This document shows, piece by piece, positions 13,791 through 49,702 of a stretch of DNA of 49,702 nt. The stretch lies in assembly GCA_003105035.1 (NCBI GenBank), contig PQAL01000025.1, positions 1 to 49,702 of the forward strand, given 5' to 3'. The DNA is from Anaerolineales bacterium (GTDB lineage: Bacteria; Chloroflexota; Anaerolineae; Anaerolineales; UBA4823). A model generated the notes under the pieces. The model did not search any database and was not told the origin of the DNA. It saw nothing but the letters and a program-made list of their open reading frames with translations. A program made the position numbers and the translations under genes. The number at the start of each line of letters is the position of its first letter. The stretch's first letter is position 1.

Positions 13791-14849
13791 ATGACAGAAT
13801 TACTCTCCTTGTTAACCGAATTAATCTCTGCACCAGGCATCAGTGGAAATGAAGGCGGCGTACGCCCACTTATCGAAAAAGCCTGGGCTCCGCTAACCGA
13901 CCAGCTGACCGTCAGCAAGCTGGGAAGCCTGCATGGCTTGCAGAATGGCACCGGCGCCGCACCCCGCCCGAGTATCATTGTAGCCACCCATATGGATGCG
14001 ATCGGCCTGATGGTGAATGCCATCGTCGATGGCTTCCTACGGGTCACCTCCATCGGGGGGATCGATGCGCGGATGTTGCCCGGGCAGATGGTGACCGTGC
14101 ATGGACGCCAGGACTTGCCCGGCTTAATTATGGCTACCCCTGCCCGGCTTATGCCATCTTCGATCAAGCCCGGGGTGATACCCATGGAATACCTGCTGGT
14201 CGATGTAGGTTTGCTCCCCGACGAAGTTAGCAGCCTGGTGCGGGTGGGAGACACGGTTTCATTTGCCCAGGAGCCATTCGAAACTGGCGGTGAGACATTG
14301 ACGGGCCATACCCTTGACAATCGGGCTTCGGTGGCGGCATTAACCCATTGCCTCGAGCTGCTGCGCGCCAGGCCCCACGTCTGGGATGTATGGGCAGTGG
14401 CTACTGTGCTGGAGGAAATCTCCTATGGAGGAGCGATTACATCAGCATTTCAGTTGCACCCCAGCCTGTGCATGACCATCGATGTGACCTTTGGTAGTGA
14501 GCCTGGCAGCCCCAGCCACCTGACCTTTCCATTGGGGAAGGGACCTACCCTTGGCTGGGGGCCGGTCGTGCATCCTTACCTGCATAAAACCATGAAAGAG
14601 CTTGCTCAACACTTAGAGATTCCAGTTGCTACCGAGCCGACCTCCCGCTATACGGGCACCGATGCGGACGCCATGGTCATGTCCGCGGAAGGTATCCCAA
14701 ACCTGGTGATCGGCATCCCATTGCGCTATATGCACACACCGGTCGAGATGGTGGCATTAAAGGATATCAGCCGTGCTGGGCGACTGGCAGCGGAGTTTGT
14801 TGCTCAATTAGATGAAGAGTTCATGCAAAAACTGACCTGGGAAGATTAA
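13791..14849 (+). CDS. M42-family aminopeptidase, copy 1
   Basis: Cytosolic di-metal aminopeptidase of the M42 (glutamyl aminopeptidase/TET) family, 352 aa. Family ligands are in place: H67 and D69 in THMDAIG, bridging D176 in LDNRAS, catalytic E208 and ligand E209 in LEEISYGG, D231 in TIDVTFG, and H315 in RYMHTP. The usual inserted PDZ-like domain occupies about 75-165. It is the first of three M42 paralogues in a row; the next starts 3 bp after its stop, so they are co-transcribed. M42 enzymes normally form dodecamers that trim peptides from the N-terminus. Confidence 0.92.
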   Translation: MTELLSLLTELISAPGISGNEGGVRPLIEKAWAPLTDQLTVSKLGSLHGLQNGTGAAPRPSIIVATHMDAIGLMVNAIVDGFLRVTSIGGIDARMLPGQMVTVHGRQDLPGLIMATPARLMPSSIKPGVIPMEYLLVDVGLLPDEVSSLVRVGDTVSFAQEPFETGGETLTGHTLDNRASVAALTHCLELLRARPHVWDVWAVATVLEEISYGGAITSAFQLHPSLCMTIDVTFGSEPGSPSHLTFPLGKGPTLGWGPVVHPYLHKTMKELAQHLEIPVATEPTSRYTGTDADAMVMSAEGIPNLVIGIPLRYMHTPVEMVALKDISRAGRLAAEFVAQLDEEFMQKLTWED

Positions 14850-14851
14850 TT

Positions 14852-15934
14852 ATGGCCGACATAACGCGCGACACGTATTCTCCCCGGATTGGGGATGAGC
14901 AAATTACTCTCCTGGAACGCCTGTCGAATGCCTGTGCAGTATCGGGCGATGAGGGGGAGGTACGTAAGATTGTGCTTAGCGAAGTTAAACCTCATGCCGA
15001 TGAGGTCAAGGTCGACGCCTTGGGAAACGTGCTTGCCACCAAATACGGTTCTGGGGAGGGTCGCCTGCGCGTGATGCTGGCTGCTCACATGGATGAAGTG
15101 GGTTTCATGCTTACCCACAGCATGGGGGATGGCATCTACCGCTTTGAGGTGGTGGGGGGCATCTCTGCCTCTGACATGGCTGGTAAGGCGGTTTGGATCG
15201 GCAGGGAGCATATCCCTGGCGTGATCGGCATTACCCCAGTGCATCTCATGCATGATAGTGATCCGCAAAAGCCGGTTGATGCACAGGAGCTGCACATCGA
15301 TGTGGGGACCGAGGTGGGCAAGGAGAAAGTGGGCGATCGTGCAACCTTTGCCACCAGGTTCACCCGGCTTGGTCCTAGCTTGCGTGGGAAAGCCCTGGAT
15401 GACCGCCTGGGGGTAGCGTCGCTGATCGCGCTTGTCAAACACGCCCCGCCCAACATTGACCTGCTGGCCGCTTTCACCGTGCAGGAAGAGACTTCCCATT
15501 ATGGTGCACGCGTGTCTGCTTATGCTCTCAACCCCCAGCTGGCGTTCATCCTGGAATCCACCCCGGCATTCGACCTGCCCGCCTGGGAGCTTGACGAAAA
15601 CGACCGTTATAACACCAGGCTGGGGGCTGGGCCAGCAATATACGTGGCTGATTCCGCCACGCTGTACGATCCGCGGTTGATCCGTTACGTGACAGAAATT
15701 GCTGAAACCCATGGTATCCCTTACCAGATACGCCAGCCAGGCGGTGGCTCAACGGATGCCGCCGTGGTCCACAAGCAGCGCCTGGGGATTCCCAGCCTCG
15801 CCATCTCCGTTCCTGGCCGTAACCACCACAGCACCGCTGCCCTGGCGCGCCTGTCAGATTGGCAGCACACCTTCGATTTGGTATTTACGTTATTGTCCGT
15901 TCTGACCCCCGCCATTCTGGCCAGTGAGCGCTAA
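14852..15934 (+). CDS. M42-family aminopeptidase, copy 2 (variant ligand set)
   Basis: 360-aa M42 paralogue. H79/D81 (AAHMDEVG), D183 (ALDDRLG) and E212/E213 (VQEETSHYGA) are conserved, but the usual Asp of the VDVT segment is Glu here (E235 in FILEST) and the C-terminal His lies in GRNHHSTAA rather than RYxHSP. These changes suggest a different metal geometry or peptide specificity from copies 1 and 3. The start is 3 bp after the previous stop. A run of 12-bp repeats begins at its own stop codon. Confidence 0.9.
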   Translation: MADITRDTYSPRIGDEQITLLERLSNACAVSGDEGEVRKIVLSEVKPHADEVKVDALGNVLATKYGSGEGRLRVMLAAHMDEVGFMLTHSMGDGIYRFEVVGGISASDMAGKAVWIGREHIPGVIGITPVHLMHDSDPQKPVDAQELHIDVGTEVGKEKVGDRATFATRFTRLGPSLRGKALDDRLGVASLIALVKHAPPNIDLLAAFTVQEETSHYGARVSAYALNPQLAFILESTPAFDLPAWELDENDRYNTRLGAGPAIYVADSATLYDPRLIRYVTEIAETHGIPYQIRQPGGGSTDAAVVHKQRLGIPSLAISVPGRNHHSTAALARLSDWQHTFDLVFTLLSVLTPAILASER

Positions 15935-15977
15935 GCCTAGTGCTAAGCCTAGTGCGAAGCCTAGTGCTGAGCCTGCG
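15930..15977 (+). repeat. Four tandem copies of a 12-bp repeat
   Basis: The unit GCTAAGCCTAGT occurs twice exactly (15930-15941, 15942-15953), once with one change (15954-15965) and once degenerate (15966-15977). The first copy contains the TAA stop of the second M42 gene. It looks like recent slippage expansion. Confidence 0.9.
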
Positions 15978-16036
15978 GATAGGCTGGGTTATGTTTTAGA
16001 ATTTTGCTTATTATGAATGATGATGTAGGAGAGCGC

Positions 16037-17038
16037 ATGAAACCATTGATCCAAAAACTTGTTGAAACCCAGGGACCATCTGGATATGAAACCTCCATCC
16101 GTTCGGTCGTGCGGGCTGAAGTGGAGCCATTTGCTGATGAGGTGCGCGTGGATGCCCTGGGTAATTTGATCGCCCAGAAGGGCACCGCCAAGGCGGGTGG
16201 GCTAAAGATCATGCTGGCTGCCCACATCGACGAAATCGGGGTCATGGTCACTCAGGTGGATACCAATGGATTTGTCCGCTTCACCACCCTGGGCGGCGTG
16301 CGGGCTTACACGTGCGTGGGTGGCCGGGTGAGATTTTTAAATGGCGCAGCGGGCGTCATCCACATGGAACCCCTTGAAGATATGACCAGGGTGCCAACCT
16401 TCGAGCAGTTATATATCGATCTAGGTTGTTCCAGCCGTGACGAAACGCCGGTGCGCGTTGGTGACGTCGGGACGTTCGACCGCCCCTTCCTCGACCTGGG
16501 ACAGCGCTTGGTGGCAAAATCGATGGATGACCGGATTGGGGCAGCCGTCCTGATTGAAACCTTGCGCCAGCTTCGCGATACACCTCACCAGCTGTACTTT
16601 GTCTTTAGCACCCAGGAGGAAGTCGGCGTACGTGGAGCGACGGCCGCCGCCTATGGGCTGGACCCTGATCTTGGCCTGGCTGTCGATGTGACTGCTACCG
16701 GCGATACCCCTCGCCGCACGAAAGTGCGTATGGAGGTCAGCCTGGGCAAGGGACCGGCCATTAAAGTACGCGACGGTGGTATGCTCGCCGATCGGCGGGT
16801 GGTGGATTGGATGATTAAGGGCGCCGAAAAGCGGGGCTTGCCCTATCAGATGGAAATTTTGGAAGGAGGTTCCACCGATGCGCGCGCCATGCAGCTGGCT
16901 CGGGCGGGTGTGCCGGCCGGATGCCTGTCCATCCCCTGCCGATATGTGCACTCGCCGTCAGAGATGGTGGACTTCGCGGATGTCGAGAACGCTGTCAGGC
17001 TGCTGGTTGAGTTGCTCAGCCAGCCCGTGCAGCTGTAA
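16037..17038 (+). CDS. M42-family aminopeptidase, copy 3
   Basis: 333-aa M42 enzyme with a complete, standard site: H63/D65 in AAHIDEIG, D164 in SMDDRIG, E194/E195 in TQEEVGVRGA, D217 in AVDVTATGD, and H305 in RYVHSPSEM. This is the copy closest to the textbook family and probably a working leucyl/glutamyl-type aminopeptidase. The frame extends to a TTG at 16004, but ATG 16037 is preceded by AGGAG at 5 bases and gives the normal N-terminus. It is separated from copy 2 by about 100 bp that include the 12-bp repeats. Confidence 0.93.
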   Translation: MKPLIQKLVETQGPSGYETSIRSVVRAEVEPFADEVRVDALGNLIAQKGTAKAGGLKIMLAAHIDEIGVMVTQVDTNGFVRFTTLGGVRAYTCVGGRVRFLNGAAGVIHMEPLEDMTRVPTFEQLYIDLGCSSRDETPVRVGDVGTFDRPFLDLGQRLVAKSMDDRIGAAVLIETLRQLRDTPHQLYFVFSTQEEVGVRGATAAAYGLDPDLGLAVDVTATGDTPRRTKVRMEVSLGKGPAIKVRDGGMLADRRVVDWMIKGAEKRGLPYQMEILEGGSTDARAMQLARAGVPAGCLSIPCRYVHSPSEMVDFADVENAVRLLVELLSQPVQL

Positions 17039-31230: not shown

Positions 31231-32304
31231 TTAAGGATTAACTGCAATCCCTTTACCTTGTGTGACTTCACCGATCACCCATATGGGTTGCTCGATTTGC
31301 GTTGCCCTGCTGAGCAGCTGGTCAAGCTTATCTTGTGCAACGGCTAGCAGCAGGCCGCCGCTGGTCTGCGAGTCAAATAGCGAAAGCTGGTCGGCCTCGT
31401 CCAGGCTCAGGTCGAAATGCACGCTGGATCCAAAATACAGGCGGTTGTCATACGTACCACCGGGGAAAATGTATTGCTCAGCGTACTTACGGGCACCGCT
31501 GATGAAAGGGATCTTCCGATATTCCAAGCGTATACCCACTCCGGAAGCTTCTGCCATCTCATAGGCATGCCCGAGCAAGCTAAATCCCGTGATGTCGGTG
31601 CCCGCCTGCAGATTAAATTCCTGCGCCAGCTCAGCGGCTGCCTTGTTCAGTTTTTTCATCCAGCCTACCGCTTCGGCTATGTCGGCTGGGTCGGCTTGCT
31701 CACGCTTGAGGGCAGTGGTGGTGGTGCCGAATCCGAGGGGCTTGGACAGTACCAGGCTATCTCCGACTTTTAAGCCCTTCTTGGTAAGCATGTGGCGCGG
31801 GTTGGTGAAGCCGATAACAACCAGGCCGTATTTCGGCTCCTTGTCTTGGACGGTGTGGCCCCCGGCGATCACCACGCCTGCCTGGCGGGCAATATCCGCC
31901 CCACCGCGCAGGATATCACTGATCACCTCGGTGGGCAGGTCAGGTGGCAGGGCGGCGATATTAAGCGCCAGGAAGGGTTTGCCACCCATGGCATACACGT
32001 CTGACAGGGCATTGGCGGCAGCAATCGCCCCGTAATCATAGGCATCATCCACTACCGGGGTGAAGAAATCCGTCGTCATCACCAGGGCGCGTTCGTCATC
32101 CAGCTGCCAGACGGCCGCGTCGTCAGGCTCCCCTAACCCGACCAGCAGGTTGGGGTAATCATTGGGGTTGAAAATCCCCTGCAGGGGGCGCAGCACCTGC
32201 GCCAGCGTTTCCGCATTCAGCTTTGATGCTCAACCAGCGCAGCTGGAGAGCGTTGTCAGGCGGATTTGCCGTCCGGAGGGTGCGTTTTCTGGTTTACTGG
32301 ACAT
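31231..32304 (-). CDS. selD: Selenide, water dikinase SelD with in-frame TGA (selenocysteine, Sec25)
   Basis: Makes selenophosphate from selenide and ATP, the selenium donor for Sec-tRNA and selenouridine. The uninterrupted frame starts only at a GTG at 32196 and would lack the catalytic N-terminus. Reading upstream without stopping at TGA (32230-32232) reaches ATG 32304 in the same frame and gives LTTLSSCAG-Sec-ASKLNAETLAQVL, the SelD motif with Sec25 in the Cys/Sec position and K28 three residues on, as in known SelD. Downstream are LGEPDDAAVW, TTDFFTPVVDD, NALSDVYAMGG and SGGLLLA. Full length 357 aa fits the family. A hairpin after the TGA supports Sec insertion. The SPFH gene lies 41 bp upstream on the same strand. 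Confidence 0.9.
32187..32203 (-). promoter_or_regulatory. selD: Candidate bacterial SECIS hairpin in selD
   Basis: Minus-strand GGCGCAG-GTG-CTGCGCC: perfect 7-bp stem with a 3-base loop starting with G. The stem begins 26 bases and the loop about 33 bases after the UGA, inside the range usually required for bacterial SECIS elements recognised by SelB. The call rests on spacing and shape only; no folding was computed. Confidence 0.6.
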
Positions 32305-32345
32305 ATTCTTCAATTCTTTAGATCATCCCTCCCTTACGGTGTCTC

Positions 32346-48543: not shown

Positions 48544-49100
48544 ATGAATAAGGACACATCGAAATTTAGAAATAAGTATAGGATACCATCCACCCGGTTG
48601 AAGGGGTGGGATTACCGATTTCCCGGGTATTATTTTGTTACGATTTGCACACGGGAACGGATTCCATGGTTTGGAGAGATAATACTGCTGAGATAGACCT
48701 TTCAGAGGTAGGCGAGGTTGCTGATCAATATTTACAACGTATTCCTGAAATCCATCCTAATGTTAGTCTGGATGCCTGGATAGTGATGCCGAATCATATA
48801 CACGCGACAATTGTTATCAATGATGCGCCGGTAGGTGTTGTAGAGACGTCCCACTGGGACGTCTCTACAACGGGCGATCATCTCATATCTGGCAGCCTCG
48901 GTGCGATCATCAATCATTATAAAGCCGCCTGCACGAGACGCATCAGAGATCTGGGCTACGGTGTTTTTGCCTGGCAGCCACGCTTTTATGATCATATTAT
49001 TCGAAATCAAAGATCGCACGATAGGATTCGTCAATATATTTGGCAGAATCCCACTAGATGGTCCGATGATGAAAATTATATAGAGACCACGCAGGGATGA
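48544..49100 (+). pseudogene. RAYT-type (Y1/IS200-like) transposase, frameshifted
   Basis: The N-terminal part reads from ATG 48544 as RLKGWDYRFPGYYFVTICTRERIPWFGEI (motif here given as GWDYRFPGYYFVTICT and PWFGEI), typical of REP-associated tyrosine transposases, but the frame then ends in TAG at 48694. The remainder continues in another frame from about 48681: LSEVGEVADQYL, the HUH-like MPNHIHATIVI with its His pair, and the catalytic-Tyr region QPRFYDHIIRN. Joining the two restores the family, so a single-base deletion near 48677-48684 explains the break. No slippery site supports programmed frameshifting. It stands alone upstream of the rRNA operon. Confidence 0.8.
48837..48871. repeat. 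REP-like 35-bp palindrome inside the RAYT gene
   Basis: Two 17-base arms (GTTGTAGAGACGTCCCA and its complement) around one unpaired base. This is the GTAGAGAC..GTCTCTAC type of palindrome that RAYT enzymes are associated with. It is in frame and would encode VVETSHWDVSTTG after the HxH motif. Confidence 0.8.
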
Positions 49101-49588: not shown

Positions 49589-49702
49589 TTTGCGGAGAGT
49601 TTGATCCTGGCTCAGGATAAACGCTGGCGGCGTGCCTAATACATGCAAGTCGAACGAGGAGTCTTTGTAGCAATACGGGGACTTCCTAGTGGCGAATGGG
49701 TG
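49589..49702 (+). rRNA. 16S ribosomal RNA, 5' part
   Basis: AGAGTTTGATCCTGGCTCAG (the 27F site) at 49596, followed by AACGCTGGCGGCGTGCCTAA and the usual ATGCAAGTCGAACGA. The start is set at 49589 by position relative to that site. The window ends after about 114 bases. Two good promoters and a structured leader stand upstream. Confidence 0.98.

Follow-up and report, generated by a model that had tools for sequence, protein, structure and literature searches.

An in-frame TGA, very probably read as selenocysteine, in the selD gene of an Anaerolineales bacterium

Does this selD begin where its open reading frame is called, or further upstream, so that it runs through an in-frame TGA read as selenocysteine (Sec)? 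The question is raised by a locus in the window, i.e. the whole stretch of 49,702 nucleotides that was analysed (contig PQAL01000025.1, assembly GCA_003105035.1). The evidence points, with very little room for doubt, to a full-length SelD in which the catalytic residue 25 is Sec, inserted via SelB and a hairpin downstream of the TGA.

The selD frame and its catalytic residue

The features of the locus are:

31231..32304, minus strand: selD (selenide water dikinase), 357 aa with predicted Sec at residue 25; matched to TIGR00476 and aligned to 3u0o and 2yye
32302..32304, minus strand: likely ATG start; another possible start is the in-frame TTG at 32313-32311
32230..32232, minus strand: in-frame TGA read as probable Sec, residue 25, on the active-site Cys column of solved SelD
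32221..32223, minus strand: AAG, Lys28, three residues past the Sec, from reading of the frame
32187..32203, minus strand: SECIS-like hairpin, 7-bp stem GGCGCAG/CUGCGCC, loop GUG at 32196-32194; from folding, conservation and compensatory changes
32194..32196, minus strand: GTG, the start in the mechanical ORF list, really the hairpin loop and the codon of Val37

The reading frame is established. On the minus strand it runs from ATG 32304 to a stop that ends at 31231, and the TGA at 32232-32230 is its sole interruption. An earlier note, made from the sequence alone, had proposed that selD is longer than its open frame and extends from this ATG through one TGA, with a Lys three residues past it; base for base, this is confirmed. 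Read through, the translation around the TGA is ...LTTLSSCAG-U-ASKLNAETLAQVL... The TTG at 32313 is in frame with ATG 32304 without an intervening stop, and by eye that ATG is not preceded by a strong ribosome-binding site at the ideal distance. Since the mechanical ORF begins at GTG 32196 and has 321 aa against 357 aa for the full reading, 36 residues are lost, which is the number the note had given. The full SelD probably has 357 residues, and a plain ORF call loses its catalytic loop.

In a profile search, the 357-residue reading scored 369.9 bits with TIGR00476 selD (cut-off 125) and 338.6 bits with PRK00943.1 (cut-off 299), thus passing the SelD model. The aligned position of the TGA is also established: residues 12-352 align with the solved SelD chain 3u0o and residues 13-348 with 2yye, U25 falling on the Cys of AGC in the former and of GC in the latter, and K28 on the Lys of both. 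The placement of the TGA at the SelD active-site motif, claimed earlier from the letters, is borne out by this alignment.

A real stop at the TGA, with SelD beginning at GTG 32196 and devoid of the active-site loop, would agree with the mechanical ORF list, which starts there, but it is extremely improbable. The protein is conserved upstream of the TGA (LSSCAG and variants), and the GTG lies inside the hairpin loop, where the third base varies among relatives (GTT, GTC, GTA). Furthermore, a SelD without residue 25 and Lys28 would have no catalytic loop.

Three other features of the window were observed. The 16S rRNA gene at its end (49589-49702) contains just the first 108 model positions. Judged by eye, positions 13791-17038 of the ORF list hold a tandem of three similar metallopeptidase-like genes, and a 164-aa ORF at 48606-49100, downstream of dnaX-ybaB-recR-like genes, is REP-associated transposase-like.

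A SECIS-like hairpin downstream of the TGA

The hairpin is established, and its earlier description as a perfect 7-bp stem with a G in the loop, 26 bases past the TGA, was exact (32203-32187; all 7 bp are paired). Spacing and loop G are of the bacterial SECIS type and presumably lie within the numeric limits of bSECISearch. RNAfold places the hairpin within the minimum free energy structure for all three stretches folded. The folding energy of the single sequence is not significant against dinucleotide shuffles (z -0.97, -1.05 and -0.64 for the three stretches); when the same protein is recoded synonymously, the real sequence stands out (z -2.7, p ~0.01). None of the Rfam SECIS families matched the selD hairpin, even at E 10. 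However, Rfam is not known to have a model for the hairpins of bacterial selD genes at large, and the miss is therefore weak evidence and not defining.

The evidence that the hairpin is unlikely to be a product of chance is comparative, and there it is decisive. A total of 140 SelD loci were examined at the codon (L018-L127, L134-L163); they are the best-scoring loci, with some repeats, rather than an even sample. At the Sec column 106 carry TGA and 30 Cys, three are cut off before it (L062, L134, L162), and one is masked (L140, from genome G030, in which N stands at the SelD codon and at a base immediately past the stem region). The 104 TGA rows of the class group are the 106 less L069 and L070; they were chosen by match rank, include records titled otherwise (e.g. 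L052, L061), and comprise 101 distinct sequences for the shuffles and 100 for the alignment A1. The Cys rows are 27 from proteobacteria (L071-L097) and three from one genus of the class.

The conservation of the hairpin is likewise established. At the fixed position all seven stem pairs are kept in 65 of the 104 TGA rows, six in 11, and five or fewer in 28; no Cys row (0/30) keeps more than five of the seven. When the 30-base region was compared with synonymous recodings that use each gene's own codons, the TGA rows proved more stable than the recodings, with a mean z of -1.65 and 47% of them at p <= 0.05 (n=101 sequences), and the Cys rows hardly so, with -0.28 and 13% (n=30). Of these Cys rows 27 are distant proteobacteria; the three Cys rows of the class have a z of 0.26 to 0.45.

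In A1 (100 rows, gap-free), 86% of the stem cells pair, and 25 double-sided changes occur against 6.4 +/- 2.2 in shuffles, including G-C to A-U at the second pair. With the 3' side shifted by -1, 28 cells are double-changed and the covariation score is 0.122 vs 0.133, with just 28% of cells pairing. RNAalifold did not predict a consensus structure on the 100-row A1. In A2, a 23-row subset of closer relatives hand-picked after A1 had been seen, 97.5% of cells are paired and double-sided changes number 9 against 3.4 in shuffles; two of its five measures do not exceed the shuffles (reached by 117 and 118 of 500). By eye, a single bulged base interrupts the otherwise retained stem in some rows (CUGCAGCC, e.g. 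L040), and L139, L146, L163 and L153 seem to rely on another hairpin. The alignment, rather than a tree, suggests that in TGA-SelD genomes the RNA signal constrains the codons as well as the encoded peptide.

Selenium machinery and the spread of TGA-SelD in the class

The source genome of the window (G000; 4.45 Mb, 43 contigs, 97% complete, 4% contamination) was searched for the machinery and for other selenoproteins. The presence of the machinery genes is established; selA, selB and selC (tRNA-Sec, anticodon TCA), all of which the earlier note had predicted, are found in this genome:

contig C17, 90845-91915: selA, 443.8 bits
contig C17, 21189-23075: selB, 335.3 bits (cut-off 242.25)
contig C21, 59680-59772: tRNA-Sec, 72.6 bits (cut-off 47), ARAGORN anticodon tca
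contig C10, 84131-86902 (locus L164, 6132-8906): formate dehydrogenase alpha subunit, TGA at residue 367, HCARLUHSS; TIGR01591, 825.4 bits
contig C5, 186378-186758 (locus L174): peroxiredoxin, TGA at the catalytic TPx(C)T position (TPIUT), glutaredoxin-like C-terminal part
contig C1, 25927-26301 (locus L175): peroxiredoxin-like protein, GFIUPFC

The tRNA-Sec model is loose: 5 of the 14 control genomes also exceed its cut-off, and ARAGORN calls a tRNA-Ser at a further G000 match that barely does so (47.5 bits). Of the nine matches to the model, eight had their loci scanned, and a single one of these (L010) is a tRNA-Sec. At least three genes besides selD have a TGA at a usual Sec position; their products, FdhA and the two peroxiredoxin-like proteins, are probable further selenoproteins. 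The fdhA TGA is followed by a hairpin, GUGGCC-GGUCU-GGCCAC, and the 46-base stretch is no more stable in folding than its shuffled versions; the gene adjoins fdhD and a NuoE/NuoF-like fusion gene. The L175 frame has two further TGAs, taken as upstream of its start, and by eye a selD-like hairpin lies past the TGA of GFIUPFC.

Might the UGA be read as some other amino acid, by a code change or plain readthrough? Such a reading has the open frame on its side, nothing more. TGA is an ordinary stop here, as 14 of 40 chosen window genes end in it; tRNA-Sec, SelA and SelB are present in the genome, and the TGA of selD occupies the position of the Cys or Sec in known SelD. An amino acid other than Sec is scarcely credible, and the organism very likely decodes UGA as Sec.

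In the bacterial system, as described in passages of PMC4513850 and PMC13188914, SelB attaches to the hairpin together with GTP and Sec-tRNA-Sec and brings in Sec at the UGA, SelD makes selenophosphate for SelA, and the catalytic residue of Sec-SelD is the Sec in its flexible N-terminal loop. In the present organism SelB, with GTP and Sec-tRNA-Sec, would bind the hairpin at 32203-32187, shortly after the UGA (32232-32230), and the bound complex would deliver Sec at this UGA in place of termination. The resulting Sec-SelD would make selenophosphate from ATP and selenide. SelA would then use it to produce Sec-tRNA-Sec for SelD itself, formate dehydrogenase and the two peroxiredoxin-like selenoproteins. 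We infer from the sequence both the actual insertion of Sec at residue 25 and the enzyme activity of SelD.

The spread of the trait was followed in 249 genomes drawn evenly from the class (Anaerolineae, judged by named relatives). A SelD-level match was defined as E <= 1e-45 and a strong SelA as about E 1e-30, the splits being set by reading the match tables. SelD-level matches occur in 208/249 genomes: 195 have one in-frame TGA, three have Cys (TGT), one is masked, five are cut off before the codon, and four (G077, G125, G168, G180) are unread at the codon. This class tally counts one in-frame TGA, its codon position being verified on the fetched loci; in G214 the SelD frame has a TAA besides the TGA. 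TGA-SelD and SelA are present in all 15 drawn genomes of the order, G000 included, and two isolates, Longilinea arvoryzae KOME-1 and Anaerolinea thermolimosa IMO-1, carry TGA at the same codon (L023, L029). A plasmid tblastn matched 171 records, all below 60% identity. Strong selA is found in 183 of the 195 TGA-SelD genomes vs 19 of the 41 without a SelD-level match. The other 12 TGA-SelD genomes, one of them (G199) 98% complete, have no strong selA match; such absences are weak evidence because many genomes are incomplete.

These genomes bear on a further explanation, namely a true Cys codon that shows as TGA through a sequencing error or the decay of a pseudogene. The assembly is in 43 contigs, and a single-base change from TGA to TGT or TGC gives Cys. 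But the 195 of 208 class SelD genomes with one in-frame TGA and the same-codon TGA of the two isolates speak against it, and the remaining frame is intact. With independent genomes agreeing to this extent, an error or pseudogene is already refuted, its probability being close to nil. The earlier note had named a Cys codon or frameshift on resequencing as what would overturn its reading of the TGA as Sec; the comparison answers that point.

The three Cys (TGT) SelDs of the class (G107, G222 and G242, loci L136, L138 and L135) belong to one genus, and the hairpin is absent in all three. The segment LAQVLRP of the present selD is LSEVAFP in that genus, and the stem is absent. SelA is found in G242, with no match in G107 and G222. 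It appears that Sec was replaced by Cys in this genus and that the hairpin signal decayed afterwards, as read from the alignment and not from a tree. The class offers a natural comparison of Sec- and Cys-SelD, with one genus that has Cys and no hairpin.

The selenouridine enzyme (TIGR03167, E <= 1e-40) was matched in 1/249 class genomes, with E. coli the sole positive of 14 controls; G000 has no match. A passage of PMC1794560 had reported the selenouridine trait absent from the Chloroflexi then sequenced. Since the enzyme is near absent, the selenouridine trait does not explain SelD in the class.

The idea that SelD is the only selenoprotein where a Sec molybdopterin enzyme is absent was mostly rejected. 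Among 14 genomes of the same order, the PF00384 matches of six (G111, G164, G192, G202, G233, G243) are all free of TGA, and five of these six (not G111) have at least one AhpC-TSA match that contains a TGA, at any position. In G111, TGA is found in 0/9 AhpC-TSA and 0/3 PF00384 matches, the two families searched. With the G000 FdhA as a class-wide query, at least 153/249 genomes match at E <= 1e-180, with rows both with and without TGA.

It is doubtful that the selenium trait is closed on itself, in the sense that SelD needs the Sec it helps to make, its product is almost unshared, and the signal is the hairpin plus the peptide LAQVLRP. If it were, translation of SelD would be a positive-feedback switch on selenium supply, and the machinery in genomes like G111 might be kept largely for SelD.

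Comparison with known systems

Sec-containing SelD was described in surveys of 2006 and 2015 (PMC1794560, PMC4561486), passages of which bear out the remark of the earlier note that SelD with Sec is known in other organisms. Sec-SelD with a bacterial SECIS has long been known, and the finding is therefore of low surprise. Table 2 of PMC1794560 counts three selenoproteins in Chloroflexi; they are unnamed in that passage and may include SelD. At the level of titles and abstract openings, a literature search found no description of Sec-SelD in Anaerolineae, Chloroflexi or Chloroflexota. According to passages of PMC4959059, Sec formate dehydrogenases occur in Anaerolineales single cells, and Anaerolinea thermophila UNI-1 has the Sec elongation factor and no annotated Sec dehydrogenase. 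For Anaerolineae of the UNI-1 type a possible reason is that the selenoproteins can be SelD itself and peroxiredoxin-like proteins.

The present selD is very probably an ordinary case of Sec-SelD, common among its relatives, with the UGA read as Sec. What this analysis adds is how widely TGA-SelD is spread in the class, the one genus that has Cys and no hairpin, and the finding that the selenouridine enzyme is almost missing from the class.

As in the Sec-SelD/SPS2 of bacteria, archaea and animals covered by passages of the two surveys, Sec is at the one position always used, and as in bacterial Sec-SelD, selA, selB and selC are present and a hairpin lies downstream of the UGA. Nothing essential differs from known Sec-SelD; the motif is CAG-U-ASK here and GAG-C-GCK in 3u0o, the best-matching solved chain. 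Like the fdhF-type bacterial SECIS, the hairpin is a stem-loop within the coding sequence soon after the UGA, with a G opening the loop. Unlike that type, it has a three-base GUN loop on a stem of the GGCGCAG/CUGCGCC type, of which 76 of the 104 rows keep six or seven pairs, and it also differs from the fdhA hairpin of the same genome. The Cys-SelD of Rhizobiales and other proteobacteria (L071-L097) is the same enzyme, with 40-44% identity, but has TGC or TGT and at most five of the seven stem pairs, whereas the present gene combines TGA with the full stem.
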